DNA from: Caenimonas sedimenti
GTDB taxonomy: Bacteria; Pseudomonadota; Gammaproteobacteria; Burkholderiales; Burkholderiaceae_C
DNA length: 64,000 nt
Direction of reading: 5' to 3'
NCBI RefSeq assembly: GCF_007833165.1
Contig: NZ_VOBQ01000016.1
Coordinates: forward strand, 62,001 to 126,000
Position 1 is the stretch's first letter, and every line of letters starts with the position of its first letter. Positions 36,613 to 47,571 of this stretch are shown here, one piece after another. The position numbers and the translations under genes were made by a program. The notes beneath the pieces are model-generated. The model did no database searches and was not told the origin of the DNA. It saw nothing but the letters and a program-made list of their open reading frames with translations.

Positions 36613-39573
36613 GTGAGCACCGTGAAAACCCAAGATACCCAGTCGCTGGACACCCTGACCGGCGGCGCCTTTTCCGCGCCGACCTCCGGCGAGCGCGCCG
36701 CGCGCGTGCGTGACTGGCTGGCCACCGATCCGAGCCATGAACAGATGCTGGAGGTGTTCCGCGAACTGAGCACCCGCGACAAGGGCGCGGCGCGCGCCCT
36801 GCGCGAGAAGCTCGACGAGATCAAGCGGGCCAAGGGCCAGGAGGTGATTGCCGCCGAATGGGCCGAGAAGGCCGCGGCGCTGTTGGCGCAGCCGCGGGTG
36901 AACATCGCCGACGCGATGGCCTGGCAGCGTGACGCGGCCAAGGCCGGGGCGCCGCTGAGCCGGGAGCCCCTGGCCTCGGTGAAGGCGCAGCTGGCCGAAC
37001 GCATCAAGGGCATCGAAGACCTGCAGCACCGGGTGCAGGTCCAGCGCGAAGCCGCCGTGCTGCTCGCGCAGCGCATCGAGATCCTGTCCACCAAATCCTG
37101 GCGCGATGCGCAGGCGGCCGCCGAGTCGCTGGGCAACGACGTGCCGGAATGGCAGCGCCAGGCGCAGGAACTCCTGGGCGACCCCAATTGGGCGAGCGTG
37201 GACCCGAAATTCCCGCCGCTGCTGGAGGCTTCGCGCGCCCAGTTGCAGGCGGTTTGGGAGGCCTTCGGCAGCGCCCTGGCCCAAGCCGTGAGCGCCGCCG
37301 AAAATCCTGCGGCAGCCCTGCCGCCCGTTCCGGTGTGGGCCGAGGAACTGCGCCAGGCGCGTGGCGGGCCGGCCGATGCCGCACCTGCGCGGCCGCCCAA
37401 GCCCAAGGTCGATCCCGAGCTGCGTTCCCGCGCCAACGAAGCGGTGCGCGCCGCTCTCGCCCGGCTGGAGCAAGAGGTGGGCGAGGGCCACGGCAAGGCC
37501 AGCGCGGGCGCGGCCGCGGCCTTGCGCGGAGCGTTGAAGGACCACGGGCGCCTGGTGGACGACAAGCTGGAAGCCCAGGCCCATGCGGCGCTGGGCGCCG
37601 CCACCGAACTCGAAGGCTGGCAGCGCTGGCGCGCCGACCAGTTGCGCCAGGAGCTGGTCGCCCAGGCGGAGGCGCTGTTCGAGCAGCCTGCCGCGCCGAA
37701 GCCGCCGCGCCCTGCGCGCAAGCCGCGCGTCGCGCCCGGCACCGTGCCGGCGGCGGAAGCGACTGCCGCTGGGACAGCCGAGGTTGCCGCTCCGGACGGC
37801 GATGCGGCCTCGACGGCAACCACCGCCGGAACGGTCACGGCGGGAGACGCCGCCGCTCCGGCCCCAGTCGCCGAAGCCGCCGCGCCTGCGGCCGAAGAAG
37901 CGGGAATGGCCGCCACGCCGGAAGCATCCGCATCGGAATCGCCCGTGGCTGAAGCCCAGGCACCCGCCGCGCCGGCGGCCGCGGCCGGCCCGCGCAAACC
38001 CCGCTTCGGCGGCCGCAAGATGCAGGAGACCCTGCGCAACCTGCGCGAGCAGTGGAAGCAGGTCGACCAGGGTGGTCCGCCCAACCACGCCTTGTGGAAG
38101 CGCTTCGACGAAGCCTGCAACGAGGCCTACAAGGTGGTGCAGGAATGGCTGGACAAGGTCAAGAGCGAGGCCGCCGAGCACAAGGCGACGCGCCTGGCGC
38201 TGCTGGCCGAAGTGCGGGCCTGGGCCGAAGCGAATCCCGCGCCCCAGGGCGGCGACTGGAAGGGCTTCAGCCGCGCGCTGCACCAGTTCGGCGACCGCTG
38301 GCGCGAAGCGGGGCACCTGAGCGAGAAGGCCTTCGCCGAGATGCAGGCGCAGTGGAAAGAGGCCATCGGCCTCGCCGCCGCGCCGCTGGATGCCGCGCAG
38401 AAGCAGAGCGTCGAGCGCCGCCACGCCATGATCGAAGAGGCCCGCCTGCTGGGCGAGGCGCCCATGCTGCGCATCGATGCCGTGAAGAGCCTGCAGCAGC
38501 GCTGGCAGCACGAAGCGCAATCCGTACCGCTGGACCGCAAGTTCGAACAGAAGCTGTGGGACAGCTTCCGCAAGCCGATCGACGATGCGTTCAACCGCAA
38601 GACCGAGGAGCGCGAAAAGGCTGCGTCGGCGATGAGCGACCGCGACCGCACCGTGCTGGATGCCTCGCGCGCGCTGGATGAAGCCACGCGCAGCGGCGAC
38701 TCGGCCAAGATCCGGGCCGCGATGACGGCGCTGGACAAGGCGCTGCGCGACGACGGCAAGGCGGCGGCGGCCCCCGCCGCGTCCGCCGCGCCGGCCAAGG
38801 CGCCGGCGGCGGAAGGCGGCGCGCCCGCGGAAGCCGTTGCCGGTGCTGAAACAGCCGAAGCGGGTGAGCCGGCTGCGGCCGCCGATGCCGGCGAAGCCAG
38901 CCCGGCCCCCGCGCCGGCCGCACCGCCCAAGGCCCCACCGAAGCCCGTCGTGGCCATGCGCGCAGGCGACGACCGCCCGGGCGCGCGCCGGCCCGACGCG
39001 GCCGCGGCGGCCCGGCCCGGCAAGTTCGATCCGCGCCGCGGACCGCCTGGCCGGGGTGATGCCCGCGGCCGACCGGACGACCGCCGGCCGCCGCGTGACT
39101 TCGAGGACCGCGGCCCGCGCCTGGGTGACGCGGCTTTCCGGGCGCAGCGCGACGCGCTGGAGCACGCGCAACTGGCGCTGCGCAAGCTGGCCGCGCAGGC
39201 GCACGGCGAGGCGCTGACGCAATTGATGGCCGCCTGGGAGCACCGCAACGCCGAAGAAGTGCCTGGCGTGCAGGAACTGGGCCGGGCCGTGACGCCCGCC
39301 GTTCGCACGGGCTGGCTGCAGGCGCTGGCCAAGCCGCCGGCCGGCGACGCCGCGCAGACGCTGTTGCGGCTGGAAATCGCCGCCGACGTGCCGACGCCCG
39401 CCGAACACATCACCGCGCGTCGCGCATTGCAGCTCCAGCTGCTGACGCGCCGCAACGATCCGGCGCCGCACGAAACCTGGGGCGCGGATGTCGGCAAGGT
39501 CCTCGCGACGGCCTACGACGCCGGCGTGGCCCGCCGGCTGCAGAACGCGGTGAAGGCCCTGCTACGTCAATAG
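36613..39573 (+). CDS. DUF349 domain-containing protein
   Basis: The 986-residue protein contains repeated DUF349 helical modules (RWREAGHLSEKAFAEMQAQW near residue 565 and similar blocks of W-x7-F spacing). They are separated by long Ala/Pro/Glu-rich linkers (about residues 360-460 and 715-800) and an Arg/Asp/Gly/Pro-rich segment near 800-840. Function is unknown; DUF349 proteins in gammaproteobacteria are poorly characterised cytoplasmic proteins. Start is GTG 36613 (a second GTG at 36622 is possible). The stop lies 7 bases inside the convergent reverse transcriptase gene. Confidence 0.8.
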   Translation: MSTVKTQDTQSLDTLTGGAFSAPTSGERAARVRDWLATDPSHEQMLEVFRELSTRDKGAARALREKLDEIKRAKGQEVIAAEWAEKAAALLAQPRVNIADAMAWQRDAAKAGAPLSREPLASVKAQLAERIKGIEDLQHRVQVQREAAVLLAQRIEILSTKSWRDAQAAAESLGNDVPEWQRQAQELLGDPNWASVDPKFPPLLEASRAQLQAVWEAFGSALAQAVSAAENPAAALPPVPVWAEELRQARGGPADAAPARPPKPKVDPELRSRANEAVRAALARLEQEVGEGHGKASAGAAAALRGALKDHGRLVDDKLEAQAHAALGAATELEGWQRWRADQLRQELVAQAEALFEQPAAPKPPRPARKPRVAPGTVPAAEATAAGTAEVAAPDGDAASTATTAGTVTAGDAAAPAPVAEAAAPAAEEAGMAATPEASASESPVAEAQAPAAPAAAAGPRKPRFGGRKMQETLRNLREQWKQVDQGGPPNHALWKRFDEACNEAYKVVQEWLDKVKSEAAEHKATRLALLAEVRAWAEANPAPQGGDWKGFSRALHQFGDRWREAGHLSEKAFAEMQAQWKEAIGLAAAPLDAAQKQSVERRHAMIEEARLLGEAPMLRIDAVKSLQQRWQHEAQSVPLDRKFEQKLWDSFRKPIDDAFNRKTEEREKAASAMSDRDRTVLDASRALDEATRSGDSAKIRAAMTALDKALRDDGKAAAAPAASAAPAKAPAAEGGAPAEAVAGAETAEAGEPAAAADAGEASPAPAPAAPPKAPPKPVVAMRAGDDRPGARRPDAAAAARPGKFDPRRGPPGRGDARGRPDDRRPPRDFEDRGPRLGDAAFRAQRDALEHAQLALRKLAAQAHGEALTQLMAAWEHRNAEEVPGVQELGRAVTPAVRTGWLQALAKPPAGDAAQTLLRLEIAADVPTPAEHITARRALQLQLLTRRNDPAPHETWGADVGKVLATAYDAGVARRLQNAVKALLRQ

Positions 39574-41453
39574 CGATGGCGCCAGAAGCCCTGGATGACG
39601 ACGGACGCCAGGAACACGATCAGCATCCCCAGCAGGAACCGCGGCCAGCCCTGGCGCCGCTGCGCCAGCGACCAGCCGAACCACGCCGCGCCGCCCATGA
39701 AGACGAGGCTGCTGCGGGTGGCGGAGGCGAACCAGAGCACGAAGAACAGCTGGAAGCCGAAGCGCCACCAGGAGATCGGGATCTCCGGTGGTGTCGTGAA
39801 CGGGCCCGGCCCGGCGCCGGCGGCGCGTTCTCCGCGTGCCGGCTGCGCAGCGGCCCGCGCCTCGTCGCGCCGGCGTGCCCGGCGCTCGGCCCGTTCCGCC
39901 TTCTTCTGTTCCTGCGTCAGTTGCAACTGAGGCGCCGCCTTGGCGGCAGGCGACCACCAGGCCCGGTCGCCGGGGCGCATGGGCGCCTGGCCCGCCGCTG
40001 CCCTTTGGCGGAAAGCCGCGCCACTTCCGGCGGCAGCCAGCGTGTGGGGTGACCGTACCAGCATGCGTGCCTGCGCCACCAGGGGCGCGCCCTGCCGCGC
40101 GTTCACGCTGCGCACGAACTGCGCATGGCCCTGCAACTGGCCGGCATTGGCCGGCGCACCTTCCCAATGGGCCTGGGCCACCCCTGATTTCTGCGCACGG
40201 TGCAATGCCGCGCGCAACCTGCGCCGCGAGCTCCGCGCGACCGAGGGCTCCCGGTTCACCACCACGCCGGTCACCTCCTGCCGGGCGCCCGAGCGCATCA
40301 CCCGCTGCTTGTCCGGGTGGGGCGTGAAGCCCTCGTCGTGCAGGATGTGGTGCACCTGGCGCAGCAACCGCCCCACCGATGCCGAGCCCTCGGGGGGCGC
40401 CGAGAAGGTCAGGTCGTCCGCGTAGCGTGTGTAGGCGAAGCCGAAGCGCCCGGCCAATCCCTGCAGGCGGCGGTCCAGCTTGCGGCAAAGAACATTGGTC
40501 AGCATCGGGCTGGTCGGCGCGCCCTGCGGCAGTGTCCTGTCCCGGCCCTTGCGGCCGACGAAGAAGAGTTCGCCGTCCACCACCAGTTCGTCCGCGGGGT
40601 TCTCGCTGCACAGGAGGGCCAGCACGGTGGCGACGTCTTCGCCGTAACCCAGCCCGCGGAAGACGCCGCGGATGCGCGGGAACGCAACGCCGGGGAAGAA
40701 GTCCTTGAGGTCCAGGTTGATCACGACGGCCTGGCCGCAGTGCGGCGCCGCGTTGCTGGTGATGGAGCGGCCGGGCACGAAGCCGTGCGCCGCGGCATGG
40801 ACCGGCACGCGCGCCAGGATGTTGTCCAGCACCCAGTACTGCGCGCGCTTCAGGCGGGGCATCGGCGCGGAGATGGTCCGTTCGCCACCGGTCTTCTTGG
40901 GCAGGCGGAAGCGGCGGTAGTGGCTGGTGCGCGCGACTTCGCGATGGAAGCCGAGGAACTTCAGTTCGGCGAGCGGGACGCCCATGGCGGTGGCCAGCTG
41001 CAGCGGTGTCTCGAACAGCGGGAGCCCGTGGCGGGCGAGGCGTTCGGGCCGGACGGCGGCATGGCCCGGATAAAGCCCGGCGGACACCTGGTCGCCGAGG
41101 TACGCGATCTCCTGCCCCGAGCGCTCGTGCCAGCGCAGCGCGTTGTCGAGGCGGCGCTGCTCGCGCGCCTGCGCGTTCGCTTCGCGTCGCGCTCGGGCCT
41201 CGGCCATGCGCTCCTTGCGCATCTGCTTCAGCGCGCTTTCCGGGTCGGTGCGCGTGCCGAGCTGCGAGCGGACCTGCTCCAGTGCCTTCGCGAGTTCGAC
41301 TTCGCGCTGGATCATCGCCTCTTCGACCGTGGGGGCGCCGCTGCCCGCGGGCCAGAAGCCCAGGCGCTGCATCTCCTCGAGAATGACGGCGTCCTTGCTG
41401 GACTTGCGCAGGCGCTCGAGCAGTTCGGCGCGGGTGGGTTGCGGGGCGCTCAT
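39567..41453 (-). CDS. Retron reverse transcriptase with C-terminal membrane-type tail
   Basis: The 628-residue RT carries retron hallmarks: NAxxH (N234-H238 in SITSNAAPHCG), LPQGAPTSP, the catalytic YADD (344-347), and VTG (394-396), followed by the thumb LQGHAQFVRSVN. Residues 1-125 are a charged, coiled-coil-prone extension. After about residue 510 come a Lys/Glu/Arg-rich helix and then three hydrophobic stretches (about 564-578, 583-597, 606-621), which suggest membrane association. The frame remains open upstream to 41795, but that part is the retron RNA; ATG 41453 begins 36 bases after a2. It copies the msd RNA into multicopy single-stranded DNA. Confidence 0.93.
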   Translation of the reverse strand: MSAPQPTRAELLERLRKSSKDAVILEEMQRLGFWPAGSGAPTVEEAMIQREVELAKALEQVRSQLGTRTDPESALKQMRKERMAEARARREANAQAREQRRLDNALRWHERSGQEIAYLGDQVSAGLYPGHAAVRPERLARHGLPLFETPLQLATAMGVPLAELKFLGFHREVARTSHYRRFRLPKKTGGERTISAPMPRLKRAQYWVLDNILARVPVHAAAHGFVPGRSITSNAAPHCGQAVVINLDLKDFFPGVAFPRIRGVFRGLGYGEDVATVLALLCSENPADELVVDGELFFVGRKGRDRTLPQGAPTSPMLTNVLCRKLDRRLQGLAGRFGFAYTRYADDLTFSAPPEGSASVGRLLRQVHHILHDEGFTPHPDKQRVMRSGARQEVTGVVVNREPSVARSSRRRLRAALHRAQKSGVAQAHWEGAPANAGQLQGHAQFVRSVNARQGAPLVAQARMLVRSPHTLAAAGSGAAFRQRAAAGQAPMRPGDRAWWSPAAKAAPQLQLTQEQKKAERAERRARRRDEARAAAQPARGERAAGAGPGPFTTPPEIPISWWRFGFQLFFVLWFASATRSSLVFMGGAAWFGWSLAQRRQGWPRFLLGMLIVFLASVVIQGFWRHRY

Positions 41454-41489
41454 CGCGCGCCTCCCAGGCGGCGGTCGGGAGGGAAAGGT

Positions 41490-41717
41490 GAGTGCGGTGC
41501 GCTTCTCGTCGAAGAGCCCGCAGGGCTTGTGGCACGGGGGCTGTCCACTCGACGGCGCACGCTCTCCGGTGCGCCAATGTGCTTTTCGGAAGCCACACCG
41601 GCATTGCGCACCGGAGGGTGTGCGCCACAGTGAAGACGGCACCCGTGATGCATGGAAAGGCAAGCTGCATGGGCGACGAAACATCGCCCGGGTTGCAAGA
41701 GCCTGCGCACCGCACTC
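41490..41717 (-). ncRNA. Retron msr-msd non-coding RNA
   Basis: Perfect 13-bp a1/a2 inverted repeats, GAGTGCGGTGCGC (41717-41705) and GCGCACCGCACTC (41502-41490), delimit 228 bases directly upstream of the RT. The msr part has a hairpin GGGCGATG/CGTCGCCC with a UUU loop (41671-41689), typical of retrons. The msd part is a 115-base hairpin closed by CACGGG (41647-41642)/CCCGTG (41538-41533), then GTC/GAC, CACT/AGTG, GGCGCAC/GTGCGCC and an 11-bp CTCCGGTGCGC/GCGCACCGGAG (41616-41606/41574-41564). Branch guanosine should lie just after a1 (within AGGC, 41704-41701). Confidence 0.9.
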
Positions 41718-41754
41718 GCGCGCAGTGTACCCGCTGCGGATGAGCTTCGGACGA

Positions 41755-43452
41755 TCATGCCGCCTCCTGTGCAGGCGCCTGCAGGCGTTCGGCATCCAGC
41801 CGCGGCTGCGCGACCATGCGCAACGCCAGCATGTGGGCGCAGGGACCCAGGCGCAGCTTGTTCTGCTGGTAGAAGTTGCAGCCGCATTCGCCTTCGCGCA
41901 GTTGTTCGTCCGCGTCCAGCGCGAGGCGCGGCGCGTATTCGGCCTTCGCTTCGCGTACCGTGCCGGTGATCAGGATGCGGCCGTCCGCGCGCTCGAGGTT
42001 CCCGATGCGTGTGCCCTTGGCCTGGGCGAGCGGCAAGGCGCGCTCCTCCTCGGGGCTGGCGAAACGCAGTTGGGCCAGGGGCAAGGGCTCGCGCGCCAGT
42101 TCGCGCCAGGCGAAGCGCTGCGCCGGCAGGTCGAACACCGCGCGGCCCGCCTGCACCCACAGGCCGAGCGCGGCGCGCACGTCTGCGGGCGGCAGCCCGG
42201 TGCGCGCGGCCAGCTCCTGCGGCGTTGCCAGCCACTGCGCCTGCAGCGCGGTGGCGACGGCCTGCTTGACCGGGTCGCTCACCTCGTGGCGCGGCTGCAG
42301 CAGATGGAAGCGCCCGGCGCCCGACCAGTCGTTGGCCGTCCAGCCCGAAAGCCCCAGCGTGACGCTGATCTCGCCCATCTCCACCACCCAGAAGCTGGGC
42401 ATGCCGGAGCCGAGCAGGTGCACGCGCACCCGCGTGGCGAGCGCGATCAGCCGTTCCAGGGTGAGCAGGCGCCGCCGGCCCCACACCCGGACCGACAGCG
42501 GCTGCGTGAGCGGTTCGCCCTCGATGCGGCTGCGGCGCGCGTCAAGCACGATGTTCCAGGGCTCGAACACCAGCCGTGCCGGCTGACCCGGTATGAGATC
42601 GAAGCGCAGCGAGCGCGGGCCCGCGCGTTCGCGGTGCTGGCGCAGCGTGGCGCAGATGCCGTGCAGGTCCATGGGATGCAGTTCGACCACCGTGGCGGGC
42701 AGCGTCATGGCGCTGGACACCTGCAGGAAGCCACGCACCCAGCTGTCGGGCAGCTCGATCTTCTCTTCGTGGAACGCCGGGTCGTTACCGGTGGCGACGG
42801 TGAACCCCGCGGGATCCACGGTGAACCGCGTGGCCTTGTAGTCGCGGATCTTCTGGAATTCCTCGTGGAGGCTGGCGGAATAGTCGATGTTGGTCGTGCC
42901 GCAGGCCATCTCGCCGGTGCGCTCGAAAACCTCGTGGCCGACGCTCACCGCGCAATAGCTCGATTCGTCCTGGCTGAACGCCTCGAACAGCAGGCGCTGC
43001 GGGTGCACGGTGATCACCGGGTCCAGCACGAACCAGGCGTCGCGGTTGGCCATGTAGAGCCAGTCGAAGTACTTGCGCTGGGCCTTGTAGAAGGGCTGCA
43101 GCAGTTCGCTTTTCTTCGCGCGCAGCGCCTTCAGTTCGTCCGCCAGCTGCTGCGCCTGGGCCTTCAGCTTGCCGACGCCGGCCATGTAGGCGGCGAGCAG
43201 CGCGGATTCATTCGCCGCCAGCCAGGTCTTGTAGGCCTCGGGGTCGCGGCCGCGGTAGCGTGCATCGCTGACCACCACTTCGTGCAACGCGGAAAGCGCT
43301 TCGCGAAAGCGCAGGCTGGCGACGGTGTCGCTGCGCAAGGTGCCTTCGAAATAGGTCGGCGGACGCAGCGTGTCCGGCGCGAACCGGAAGGACTGGTCCC
43401 GCGCGCTGTCATCGACCGTGGTCGCGCCGTAGTACTTGTAGCGGAATTCCAT
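41755..43452 (-). CDS. Winged-helix/SWIM zinc-finger protein of the retron
   Basis: The 565-residue protein ends in a SWIM zinc finger with C523-x-C525-x12-C538-x-H540. A winged-helix-like segment precedes it (about 415-465, TPQELAARTGLPPADVRAALGLWVQ), and a coiled coil lies near 95-120. SWIM domains bind nucleic acids or proteins. It is 18 bases after the ARM/HEAT-like gene and ends 38 bases before the retron RNA, so all parts look cotranscribed. As I recall, this WH-SWIM/ARM pair defines retron type XIII; a role as effector or regulator of abortive infection is inference. Confidence 0.85.
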   Translation of the reverse strand: MEFRYKYYGATTVDDSARDQSFRFAPDTLRPPTYFEGTLRSDTVASLRFREALSALHEVVVSDARYRGRDPEAYKTWLAANESALLAAYMAGVGKLKAQAQQLADELKALRAKKSELLQPFYKAQRKYFDWLYMANRDAWFVLDPVITVHPQRLLFEAFSQDESSYCAVSVGHEVFERTGEMACGTTNIDYSASLHEEFQKIRDYKATRFTVDPAGFTVATGNDPAFHEEKIELPDSWVRGFLQVSSAMTLPATVVELHPMDLHGICATLRQHRERAGPRSLRFDLIPGQPARLVFEPWNIVLDARRSRIEGEPLTQPLSVRVWGRRRLLTLERLIALATRVRVHLLGSGMPSFWVVEMGEISVTLGLSGWTANDWSGAGRFHLLQPRHEVSDPVKQAVATALQAQWLATPQELAARTGLPPADVRAALGLWVQAGRAVFDLPAQRFAWRELAREPLPLAQLRFASPEEERALPLAQAKGTRIGNLERADGRILITGTVREAKAEYAPRLALDADEQLREGECGCNFYQQNKLRLGPCAHMLALRMVAQPRLDAERLQAPAQEAA

Positions 43453-43470
43453 GTCTGGCTCGTGTTCCGG

Positions 43471-46400
43471 TCAGCCCGCGGCGGCGGCCGCGCGCAGTTC
43501 CGGGACCTTCCACTCGACGAAGGGGAGGCTGATCTGCGGGTGCCGCGCCGCGATGTCGCGCAGGCCGGCGATGTACTGCGGCTTGTCCGTCAGGCTCGAG
43601 GTGACGACCTGGCGCGCGAAGATGTCGGCGACGACGGCGGCCGTCTCCGGCGCGCCGGTCTGCGACCGCAGGAAGTCGGTGATCCGGGTCTTGGCCGTGC
43701 GGCCGCGGTGCACCTGGCTCAGCACGGTCAGGAAATAGGGTTGCAGGACGCGCAGCCGTTCGGCGCGTGCGGCGGGCTCTTCCGCCGGCAATTCCAGCAG
43801 CCATTGCGTGACGAACAGCTGCACCTGGGTGCCGGGGTGCTGCGCGAGCCGCGTGAGGCACAGGCTGGCCTCGGGCGCATGCATGCGGCGCACGAGCCGC
43901 GTGCGGCCGATGGCCTGCACCCATTCGGCCGGGTGGTCGACCCAGGCGATCAACAGTTCCGGCGTCAGCGTCTCGTCGCGCAGCCGCTCGGCGAACCATA
44001 GCGTGGCGTAGTCCCGCGCGTCTTCGAAACGCGCGTCCGCCAGCGGCAGCAGTTGCTCCGCCTGTTCGGGCGTGACTCTCGCCGGATCCAGCTGCATGTC
44101 GATCGCGGCCATGCCCCATTCGCGCACCGACAGCTGCGGATGCCGCGCGAGATGGGCCAATTGCCGCAGGCTGAAATCGGCGGGCACATGCTTCGCGAGC
44201 GCCCAGGCGCCGAAGCGCTGGGCGGCTTTGCTTTGCGCCTGCAGCGCGCGCCAGGTCGCGGCCGCGTCGCCGCGGGGTGCGAAATCCGCCAGGTCCTGCG
44301 AGAGCCAGGCGAGGGCATCGTCATGCTGGCCTTCGCCGCTTTCGGTGGCGAACAGGCTCGCGTGCAGGCGCTGGGCCAACGCGTGGCCGAAGGCGGCGTC
44401 CCGTTGCGCGATGCGCCGCAAGGCCGGCGCCACGGCGGCGCGGATGGCCGCATGCGGATGCACCGCGAGGTCGGCCAGCAGCGCCTGCTGCTGCAGCAGG
44501 ACTTCGTCGGGCAAGGCGGCGAGCAGGCGGACGCCCGAGGCCCGCCGCTCGGGATCTTCGTCGCCCAGCAACCGCTGGAAATCGGCGGCGGGCACCAGCG
44601 CGAGGCCATGGGGATGCAGCAGCAGCCAGGTGACGGCGAGGCGCAGCACGGCCACCGACGGGTGGCCCAGCAGGTTCACCAGCGGTTCCACCGGGACGCT
44701 GCCCGCCGCTGTCGCCAGTGGCCCTTGCAGCTGCGCTTCGAGCTGGGCACAGGCCGCGGCCAGCCAGGGTGCCTCCGGATCCGCCGCGGCCAGCGCCGCT
44801 TGCAGTTCGGCGAGCAAGGGGGCGGGCGGCGCGAGCGGCAGCAGGCCCTGGCCCTGCAGCCGGGCCGGCGCGTGGGGCGAGAGAAGCAGCGCCACCACCA
44901 GTTCGGCATGCTGCGCGTGGCCCAGCGGATCGCTGGCGATCCGCTGGAAGGCGTAGTCCTGCGCGGGGCCGTGGACGCTGCCCCCGAGCAACACCAGCCA
45001 GGGAACGCGCCCCGCGAGATCGGCCGCCTGTTCCACCTGCGAGCGCGCCAATTGGTAGCCCACGGCGGCCGACGCGTCGTAGGGCGAGAGCAGCAGCGGT
45101 GTCCAGGCGGCCGGCTCCTGGCGTTCCAGGAAGGGCAGGTGATCCAGCAGCGCCCGGCCCAGCGTGGCGTGGACCAGCGCGCAGTGGCTGTGCAAGGCGA
45201 GTGTGAGCAGTGCCTCGGGGTGCGCGTCCCACATCGCCGGCAGGCCGTCGCAGCGGTTGGCCATGGCGTGCCTGGTGTCGAGTGGCGCGGTGGTCCACCA
45301 GCGGGCGGCGCGTTCGCTCTGGCCCAGGGCCGGGTGGCGCGCGAGCAGCAGCTTCGCGCCGATCCGCCAACCGGAGGCCGGCTGGTAGTGGCGCTGGACA
45401 GCCTGATGCCGGCCATCGACCATCTGCCAGCGCGTCTCCTGGTGGGCCGGCGGCAGGCGCGCATCGTCGAGCCCGAGCAGCAGCTGGGTGGCGAGACGCG
45501 CCGCGTACGGGTGCCCGGTCGCCGCATGCCGGCGCACGGTGCGCCAGGCGCGCAGGCGCAGGTAGTCGCGGGTGCGGCTGCCATAGGCGAGGCGGGGCGT
45601 GGGGCGGGCGAGTTCGTCCTTGACCGGCCTGCGCACCCATTTCTGCGTCACCGCATCCAGGAATCCGTGCGCGCCAGCGTCGCCGCTGTTGCAGAAATAA
45701 GGCGGGGTCGATTCGAAGCGCTCGTGAAGGACGCCCAGCAGTTCCGCGTCGCGCCGGATCTCGGCCGCCTTGTAGAGCGCCCGCACGGCCTGGAAATTGC
45801 CGGGGATCAGCGGCAAGGCGCGCGCGGTGGCCAGCAGCGCCGCGCGGCTGGCGGGGCTGTCGATGCTGACTGCGAGCCAATCCAGGAAGAAATCGGCGCA
45901 GGGAACAGCGCGCTCGCTGAGCAAGGCGTGGAGCTGGTCCAACGGCTGGCCGGGGAGGATCGCCACATCGAAATGGGAGGGCCAGCGCGCGCGGAGCACC
46001 GCGACGTGCGCGTCGCGCTCGGCCGCCGGCGCCAGCAGCAGCCAGGCCTGGCCTGCGGCCCGGCGCGTGGCGGCGGTGCGGCCGCGCGTTCCGAGCTCGC
46101 GCATCGCCTCCGCGGCCCCAGGGTCCCCGAGATGGCCCAGCGCGACGGCCAGGCAGTGATCGAGCAGGTCGTCGCCGGTGCCCAGCAGCTCCACCAGGCG
46201 CGGCGCCAGCCCACGCAGCAGCCGCTGCGTGGGCGACTGCGCCCCGGCGTCGGCATATTCGCCAACCCGCCAGGCGCTGCGGGCACGCCGCCCGGCATCC
46301 AGCAGGCGCCAGCGGGCGGCTTCGAAGCGCGCCACCAGTTGCAGGACCGCGGCGGGCACGGCGGCCGCCGCCGGCGGCGGCGGCGCCGCGGCCGCGGGCG

Positions 46401-46734
46401 TGCCGCCCTCGAAGGAGGCCAGGGCGGCGAAGCCTTCGCGTTGCGCCAGCCGCTCCCCGGCCGCGAGGCGCCGGCGCAGGAAGTCCAGGGCGCGGCGCTC
46501 CGCCTGTTCGAACGTGACGGGTGCGGCCGTGAGGGAAGACTCATGCCATCGTTCAGGCGGCGCTTCCTCGCCTGCGGCCGCCTTGGCGGCTGGCATGTTC
46601 TGCCGCACCGTGACGAGGAAGCGCGCCGGCGGCGGACCCTCGGCCGGCGGCGCATCCAGTTCCACCAGTTCGACCGTGCAGCGCCGTTCGGGCGTGCCGC
46701 TGCGCAGCGTGACCGCGATCGCGATTCGTTTCAA
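43471..46734 (-). CDS. ARM/HEAT-repeat-like protein of the retron
   Basis: This is a roughly 1087-residue protein of helical repeats, best seen after residue 600 (recurrent LLxHPHxALRxAVxxAL-like units). The N-terminal ~110 residues (RFLVTVRQ ... RWHESSLT ... RALDFLRRRLAAGERL) weakly resemble a WGR domain. It is first in the retron operon, 18 bases before the SWIM gene and 78 after mtfA. The start is TTG 46734 with GGGGGGA upstream; TTG 46770 in the same frame is an alternative. No catalytic motif is recognised; scaffold or target-sensing function is inference. Confidence 0.78.
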   Translation of the reverse strand: MKRIAIAVTLRSGTPERRCTVELVELDAPPAEGPPPARFLVTVRQNMPAAKAAAGEEAPPERWHESSLTAAPVTFEQAERRALDFLRRRLAAGERLAQREGFAALASFEGGTPAAAAPPPPAAAAVPAAVLQLVARFEAARWRLLDAGRRARSAWRVGEYADAGAQSPTQRLLRGLAPRLVELLGTGDDLLDHCLAVALGHLGDPGAAEAMRELGTRGRTAATRRAAGQAWLLLAPAAERDAHVAVLRARWPSHFDVAILPGQPLDQLHALLSERAVPCADFFLDWLAVSIDSPASRAALLATARALPLIPGNFQAVRALYKAAEIRRDAELLGVLHERFESTPPYFCNSGDAGAHGFLDAVTQKWVRRPVKDELARPTPRLAYGSRTRDYLRLRAWRTVRRHAATGHPYAARLATQLLLGLDDARLPPAHQETRWQMVDGRHQAVQRHYQPASGWRIGAKLLLARHPALGQSERAARWWTTAPLDTRHAMANRCDGLPAMWDAHPEALLTLALHSHCALVHATLGRALLDHLPFLERQEPAAWTPLLLSPYDASAAVGYQLARSQVEQAADLAGRVPWLVLLGGSVHGPAQDYAFQRIASDPLGHAQHAELVVALLLSPHAPARLQGQGLLPLAPPAPLLAELQAALAAADPEAPWLAAACAQLEAQLQGPLATAAGSVPVEPLVNLLGHPSVAVLRLAVTWLLLHPHGLALVPAADFQRLLGDEDPERRASGVRLLAALPDEVLLQQQALLADLAVHPHAAIRAAVAPALRRIAQRDAAFGHALAQRLHASLFATESGEGQHDDALAWLSQDLADFAPRGDAAATWRALQAQSKAAQRFGAWALAKHVPADFSLRQLAHLARHPQLSVREWGMAAIDMQLDPARVTPEQAEQLLPLADARFEDARDYATLWFAERLRDETLTPELLIAWVDHPAEWVQAIGRTRLVRRMHAPEASLCLTRLAQHPGTQVQLFVTQWLLELPAEEPAARAERLRVLQPYFLTVLSQVHRGRTAKTRITDFLRSQTGAPETAAVVADIFARQVVTSSLTDKPQYIAGLRDIAARHPQISLPFVEWKVPELRAAAAAG

Positions 46735-46812
46735 GACTTTGTCCCCCCTGCGCCAAGCCCCCTTGCGCAACCCTGCCGATTCTGCAGCAGAAAGTAGACG
46801 TTCCGGCTGGCC

Positions 46813-47571
46813 CTAGCGGCCCGGTGCGAAGAAACCGTCGAACAGCGGGACCAGCACAGCGAACTCCTTGCCGAAGCGTTCGCGATTGACGAAATACGCC
46901 TCGCACGCCACCGCGAAGAATTCGTCGATGGCCGTGGCGCCGTATGGATCGAGCCAGGGCGCCGGGCCGCTGAAGCGCTCGGCGATGATCACCTGCTCGC
47001 GAAACGCCTGGTACTGCGCCTCCATCGTCGCCAGCCAGGCGTCGCGCGCGGCGCGCGACGGCAGCGGCGGGCAGCCATCGGACGCGCCGTCGCGCATGTC
47101 GATCTTGTGCGCGAATTCGTGGATGACGACGTTGTAGCCGGCATCGGCGGAGGCCCCTGCCGCGGCGACGTCCTGCCAGCTCAGCATGATCGGGCCGTGG
47201 TGCATGGCTTCGCCGGCCAGCACCTCCTCGTAGTCGTGCACCACGCCGTCGTCGTCGGTGTCGGTGCGCCGCGCGACCACCTCCGCCGGGTGGACGACGA
47301 TGCCCACGAAATCGTCATACCAGTCCAGGCCCAGGTGCAGCACCGGCAGCACCGCCTGCGCCGCGATGGCGAGTGCGATGGCGTCGGTGATGACGAGGCC
47401 GTCGGCACCATGGAATTCCTTGTCCGCGAGGAAGCGCGCGGCCAGGCTGCGCAGTTCCTGCAGTTCGTGCGCCGGGCGCGCAGCCAGGAAAGGATAGGCC
47501 GCGAGCGTGCCCGCCCAGAGGGCACCGGGAATCTCGCGCGGCGGCCGGCGCGCCCGCAGCCAGCCGCGCAT
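46813..47571 (-). CDS. mtfA: Zinc metallopeptidase, MtfA/M90 family
   Basis: The 252-residue protein has the zinc-protease motif HEFAHKID near residues 150-157 and the family C-terminal DEFFAVACEAYFVNRERF. MtfA binds and relieves Mlc-type repressors in enterobacteria and has aminopeptidase activity. ATG 47571 overlaps the lpxH stop by one base (TGATG), so the genes are coupled. A long upstream frame lies inside lpxH and is a shadow. Confidence 0.88.
   Translation of the reverse strand: MRGWLRARRPPREIPGALWAGTLAAYPFLAARPAHELQELRSLAARFLADKEFHGADGLVITDAIALAIAAQAVLPVLHLGLDWYDDFVGIVVHPAEVVARRTDTDDDGVVHDYEEVLAGEAMHHGPIMLSWQDVAAAGASADAGYNVVIHEFAHKIDMRDGASDGCPPLPSRAARDAWLATMEAQYQAFREQVIIAERFSGPAPWLDPYGATAIDEFFAVACEAYFVNRERFGKEFAVLVPLFDGFFAPGR

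Follow-up and report, generated by a model that had tools for sequence, protein, structure and literature searches.

How a type XIII retron might sense a phage and stop the infected cell is the question raised by a locus in Caenimonas sedimenti. The locus lies in a stretch of 64,000 nucleotides (contig NZ_VOBQ01000016.1, positions 62,001 to 126,000), which is called the window here. The preliminary description of the window, made from its letters alone, had reported a complete retron with two partner genes and had placed it in type XIII. This is a known type, reportedly set up in the retron classification of Mestre et al. in 2020, and the present locus is a further, sporadically occurring member of it. 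Judged by its sequence, the segment 46734-39567 almost certainly represents a type XIII retron that is intact and belongs to the WGR subtype. Two features relevant to mechanism, absent from the preliminary description, are a clamp-like fold predicted for the SWIM partner protein and a hydrophobic tail on the reverse transcriptase (RT). If true, a clamp-like partner together with a membrane tail would offer concrete ideas, open to testing, on how type XIII retrons sense and stop phages.

Three open genes on the minus strand and one RNA span 46734-39567 in the order HEAT protein, SWIM protein, RNA-containing gap and RT. The large HEAT-repeat protein (1087 residues; 43471-46734) begins with a TTG at 46734, a start that is backed by relatives beginning with MKRI (L121-L123). 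Its stop is separated by 18 bases (43453-43470) from the start of the SWIM protein (565 residues; 41755-43452), in agreement with the tight same-strand partner genes described earlier. A gap of 301 bases, which contains the RNA, precedes the RT (628 residues; 39567-41453), whose start was set at the ATG at 41453 in place of a longer mechanical open reading frame from 41795. The RT motifs named earlier were all present when read by eye (NAAPH for NAxxH, YADD and VTG). When PADLOC was run, as had been proposed, all three proteins matched type XIII models at about 1e-173 or better (WGR_XIII, 1.3e-252; SWIM_XIII, 1.8e-212; RT_XIII, 2.1e-173), and the next model for the RT scored 235 bits below RT_XIII. 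These results bore out both the type assignment and the completeness of the retron (RT, RNA and two partners). The large partner had been called ARM/HEAT-like, and it does consist mostly of HEAT repeats, but PADLOC favored WGR_XIII (1e-252) over the HEAT-ARM_XIII models (4e-15). In a Pfam scan of the window's retron proteins, RVT_1 alone exceeded its cut-off, and no catalytic effector domain was recognized in profile scans of the partner proteins and their families.

The partner genes are conserved next to homologous RTs, a point on which the preliminary description had staked its reading. From 255 RT relatives found, 80 were kept, with the window itself (L001) not counted; SWIM was present at 75 of these and the HEAT protein at 73. 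SWIM was absent at L005, which lies at a contig end, and at four cyanobacterial loci (L070, L076, L078, and L081), and HEAT was additionally absent at L049 and L069, two loci truncated by contig ends. A same-strand SWIM gene stood upstream of the RT in 74 of the 80 loci, and the order HEAT-SWIM-gap-RT was retained in Pseudomonadota, Bacteroidota, and Myxococcota, with long SWIM-RT gaps at L043 (2597 nucleotides) and L067 (1524 nucleotides). At a Thiothrix locus (L077:7995-14679), the order was RT-HEAT-SWIM and the RT was tail-less. Three of the four cyanobacterial genomes carried the SWIM family elsewhere, adjoining a HEAT gene (L070, L078, and L081), while the SWIM family was not found in the draft genome of L076. 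Split systems of this kind, with the HEAT-SWIM pair apart from the RT in the same genome, were seen at L121-L123 (with L070, L078, and L081) and at L131/L137.

Among 369 genomes of the class, the SWIM family was found at E≤1e-40 in seven, all of which have a window-like RT (six of six besides the window's own at E≤1.8e-85). Two RTs of these six genomes were scanned with PADLOC, and both matched RT_XIII (L134 and L136). In G180, an intact HEAT-SWIM pair lay on another contig than the RT; G222 showed the same separation, but there the contigs are short. In a quick tree of the RT cores, the five nearest relatives belonged to Sphaerotilaceae (Aquabacterium twice, Mitsuaria, Roseateles, and Rhizobacter) and Variovorax of the Comamonadaceae was farther away; the host had been described as Comamonadaceae-like, which is only roughly right.

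The RNA between the SWIM and RT genes is the fourth component. The noncoding RNA runs from a1 (41705-41717) to a2 (41490-41502), thus over 41490-41717 on the minus strand, and the perfect 13-bp match of these repeats was confirmed. It contains an msr stem-loop (41671-41689; helix 4 of the alignment structure) and a long hairpin (41534-41646; helices 5 and 6), presumed to be the msd, the template of the predicted multicopy single-stranded DNA (msDNA). None of 200 dinucleotide shuffles folded as well as the window's RNA (z -5.75), and its best arm-to-arm stem of 13 bp was matched by none of 60 shuffles. In an alignment of ten sequences (the window and nine relatives picked from the retained set), pairing was kept in 98.8% of cells, and compensatory changes on both sides occurred at 31 of 83 pairs, compared to a shuffled mean of 12.6; none of 500 shuffles reached 31, and only 0-5 compensatory pairs were retained when the structure was slid by one to three columns. 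The compensatory changes support both the a1/a2 stem and the long hairpin. Among the 73 loci, the window's included, at which 150-900 nucleotides separate SWIM from RT, 56 had an arm-to-arm stem that was reached by three or fewer of 60 shuffles. Rfam at gathering thresholds gave no match on the retron RNA, its sole match in the whole window being a tRNA. The ten-sequence alignment sketches an msDNA template that RT-DNA tools could use.

What the SWIM protein might do is suggested by its predicted structure. An AlphaFold2 model built from 43 sequences had a predicted local distance difference test score (pLDDT) of 78 and a predicted template modeling score (pTM) of 0.72. In this model, the first ~370 residues (42343-43452) are predicted to fold like the PCNA sliding clamp, the limits 1-370 being a by-eye reading since Foldseek gave no ranges. 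Foldseek against the Protein Data Bank (PDB) returned 371 matches at E≤1e-3; the 50 listed were all PCNA entries (best E 2.8e-8, probability 1.00; target TM-scores 0.20-0.70). Against the viral models of BFVD, 47 matches were found at E≤1e-3 (best 4e-8), of which 27 bore clamp names (PCNA or beta clamp/DnaN) or were called processivity factors and 20 were uncharacterized, unnamed, or otherwise named. As read by eye, the repetition of a strand-helix-three-strand unit at about residues 254-368 is consistent with a clamp domain, and a helical hairpin is inserted in the first domain. A winged-helix-like segment follows at about residues 390-450 (42103-42285), suggested by the helices and strands of the model and by a weak Pfam DprA_WH match (E 0.0098, below the cut-off). 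The SWIM zinc-finger motif CxC...CxH (C523, C525, C538, and H540; 41833-41886) is invariant across the 43 aligned proteins. Pfam SWIM was matched at E≤0.01 by 35 of the 43 family members, and the window's protein was not among the matches listed.

For the HEAT protein, the AlphaFold2 model (pLDDT 89.5) showed an N-terminal beta domain of ~100 residues, WGR-like (46435-46734), followed by a helical solenoid. Foldseek matched the model to HEAT proteins of the CAND1, SF3B, and PP2A-A kinds with low TM-scores. Across 40 family members, Pfam found HEAT_2 in 23 and WGR in 11; the window's protein had no Pfam WGR match.

The second feature is the C-terminal end of the RT. The RT_XIII model of PADLOC covers residues 3-527 of 628, leaving about 100 residues beyond it, including a hydrophobic tail at about residues 565-628 (39570-39761) that is predicted to be a membrane anchor. 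Tails were scored by a rule demanding a mean hydropathy of at least 1.6 over 19 successive residues past the alignment column that holds RT residue 470. In the window RT, one segment passed this rule (maximum 2.26), and inspection by eye showed another hydrophobic stretch directly ahead of it. The sample comprised 80 RTs (the window and 79 relatives), of which L028, L056, and L061 reach a contig end and were left unclassified; L081, with an RT frame broken at 61 codons from the start of the match, was excluded from the tail and tree sets. In the 77 untruncated RTs, a transmembrane-like segment was found in 60, the window included, and a short end of the WWK/WWE type, such as KKKWWKLF, in 12. 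By this hydropathy measure, a hydrophobic RT tail is common in type XIII as sampled. Beyond the tail set, reading by eye showed a hydrophobic segment at the ends of L138, L139, and L140, and an aromatic tail ending in SLWSRFWKKK in the unlinked RT of G180 (L137). On the RT core tree, the three tail classes need four changes when cut rows are omitted, and seven with cut rows as a fourth class, compared to a shuffled mean of 19.2; the tail classes are thus clustered by lineage. The tree carried a long-branch warning, with L058 and L077 among the branches concerned. The notion that the tail is restricted to RTs having partners was rejected, as the genomes of the tail-less and seemingly partner-free L070 and L078 carry HEAT-SWIM elsewhere.

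Results from other retrons provide a frame for these features. In Eco8, msDNA keeps the effector inactive until it is released by the phage single-stranded DNA-binding protein, according to PMC13158370, and a winged-helix protein binds msDNA in a type IX retron, according to PMC13405049. By analogy, msDNA would be made by the RT from the msd hairpin, and a complex of RT and msDNA would keep the partners inactive until an infecting phage perturbs the msDNA. The RT tail may place the complex on the inner membrane, as the predictions suggest, and the SWIM protein, with its clamp-like, winged-helix, and zinc domains, would probably sit on the msDNA. The partners would then be DNA-binding and scaffold proteins (clamp-like, winged helix, and SWIM in one; WGR-like and HEAT in the other), which would bind msDNA at rest and upon release could engage DNA or the replication machinery and stop the infected cell. 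Type XIII retrons would accordingly be membrane-tethered complexes held by a hairpin or an aromatic-basic RT tail, in which a clamp-winged-helix-SWIM protein and a WGR-HEAT scaffold act on DNA or the replisome with no conventional toxin enzyme. We give this model-based reading a probability of roughly 0.3.

Several results weigh against this account of the retron. The superpositions of the SWIM model on clamps had root mean square deviations of about 6-20 Å, and the model itself is of moderate confidence at its pLDDT and 43 sequences. A comparison of the SWIM family with a DnaN alignment by hhalign gave a probability of 0.3%, a PDB profile search with the SWIM protein gave no clamp up to E 10, and a single-sequence search gave no clamp match. 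Sequence-level homology to clamps was rejected on the first two of these results, and because the sequence searches lend no support to it, the protein is called clamp-like and is not filed in the PCNA/DnaN superfamily. As for the tail, it is not universal: five of the 77 RTs have neither a transmembrane-like segment nor a WWK end (L036, whose end looks amphipathic, and L070, L076, L077, and L078). Furthermore, when RT cores served as a control, 12 of 80 also passed the hydropathy rule, and the RTs of a variant with a giant HEAT protein are short (430-432 residues) and tail-less. In 17 of the 73 SWIM-RT gaps, no a1/a2 stem beyond chance was found. The WGR motif, Y-G-R in relatives, is degenerate in the window (VRQ...), as it is in the Sphaerotilaceae kin and in most other Burkholderiales rows.

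Other explanations put the effector elsewhere. The SWIM or HEAT protein might hide an enzyme, a nuclease or other, with the clamp resemblance reflecting an alpha/beta layout or a platform; this is a possibility that we hold only tentatively. It would suit the fact that SWIM is the better conserved partner, with 43-74% identity to the window's protein in 42 relatives versus 22-57% in 39 relatives for HEAT, and with many invariant charged residues, and it would suit a clamp match that comes without sequence support. It fits poorly with structural matches that were all PCNA among the 50 listed from the PDB, and clamps or processivity factors by name in more than half of the viral-model matches (27 of 47 at E≤1e-3). 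Type IV retrons have a separate effector with two transmembrane segments, and by comparison the hydrophobic RT tail could itself be the toxin, a membrane-disrupting hairpin that is released or oriented on activation. The 60 of 77 RTs with such a tail and the failure to find a catalytic effector domain in the partners speak for this, yet some relatives that carry the same partners end in a short aromatic-basic stretch (12 of 77) or have neither feature, and the tails are very different from clade to clade, more in keeping with an anchor than with a pore. We therefore consider a toxic tail unlikely.

Clamp-binding motifs are short binding peptides, and the C-terminal aromatic motifs (KKKWWKLF) stand beside a partner of predicted clamp fold. 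The WWK-type RT ends could then bind the clamp-like SWIM protein or the host DnaN instead of anchoring the RT in a membrane. This, too, appears improbable in view of the hydrophobic segment in most RTs, the window's among them, which is often followed by basic residues, as is typical of membrane anchors. Finally, the locus could be a decaying or nonfunctional copy, given its degenerate WGR motif and its presence in only one of 60 genomes of the genus. With three open frames, catalytic and zinc residues in place, perfect a1/a2 repeats, and similar WGR degeneracy in the Sphaerotilaceae relatives, decay is very hard to credit.

Compared to known systems, the window shares with other type XIII retrons the three protein matches, the majority gene order, and the noncoding RNA between SWIM and RT; it differs in details, namely the degenerate WGR motif, as in the Sphaerotilaceae copies, and the roughly 100 RT residues, tail included, that extend past the PADLOC match. 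The giant-HEAT-ARM variant of type XIII (L135 and L136) shares SWIM and RT, which in L136 match SWIM_XIII and RT_XIII, but has a WD40-like and HEAT protein of 2117-2149 residues and the short tail-less RT mentioned above. Its operon, seen in two genomes (L136:2-11823, and L135), encodes a HEAT-family protein, the WD40-like/HEAT giant, SWIM, and the RT, and the HEAT-family protein of L136 had a weak BRCT match below the cut-off. In the type IX retron Kva2, a defense complex unites RT and msDNA with a winged-helix partner, an arrangement that is also predicted here; the Kva2 effector is a HEPN RNase (PMC13405049), whereas none was recognized at the window locus. The solved retron RTs (Ec86, Ec67, Ec78, Eco8, and Kva2) share the RT core through phmmer matches. 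They have different effectors, and the chains listed are 310-381 residues long except Ec67 (596 residues), compared to 628 in the window; no chain found by the sequence and PDB profile searches was named type XIII. The E. coli yeh operon has neighboring genes with the same domain names (YehF, PF05406/WGR; YehQ, SWIM), but a link was rejected, as the SWIM family did not match YehQ and the HEAT family matched YehF at E 0.49 (Z 10000).

Type XIII seems to have received hardly any study: the open literature searched yielded only a PADLOC mention in Variovorax, with no "Retron XIII" and no pairing of retron with WGR; the main text of PMC12548924 does not contain "XIII". Among the matches listed, none linked retrons to sliding clamps by title or abstract start. 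Neither a clamp-like fold nor an RT tail was described for type XIII in those matches, although the 2020 classification, outside that search, may describe either.

The surroundings of the retron bear on its origin. A convergent gene, which we take to encode a DUF349 protein, overlaps at its end with the RT stop, and the upstream genes are presumably mtfA, lpxH, and ppiB. Within the genus, the SWIM family occurs in a single genome out of 60, the window's own. A search of 59 genus genomes detected mtfA in 56, and 30 loci were obtained, one of them the window's own. The site is closed in 24 of the remaining 29, with mtfA and DUF349 no more than 200 bases apart; at three loci the two genes are separated by 435, 996, and 1026 bases, and at two the DUF349 end resisted alignment. 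The window's flanking genes were matched at none of the 80 related loci, within the flanks available. The retron was probably acquired horizontally as a cassette between mtfA and the DUF349 gene; loss in the other species of the genus is a conceivable alternative. The G+C content of the retron (0.719) is slightly above that of the remaining window (0.676), and a sigma-70 consensus scan of 46650-46900 gave no promoter. In two congeners (L098 and L105), about 1 kb of other DNA lies at the mtfA-DUF349 junction, and this site may therefore take inserts repeatedly. Three further RVT_1 proteins with open frames of about 600 residues are encoded elsewhere in the window's own genome (G000; contigs C49, C51, and C4; L114-L116), and their size suggests that they are perhaps group II intron RTs.

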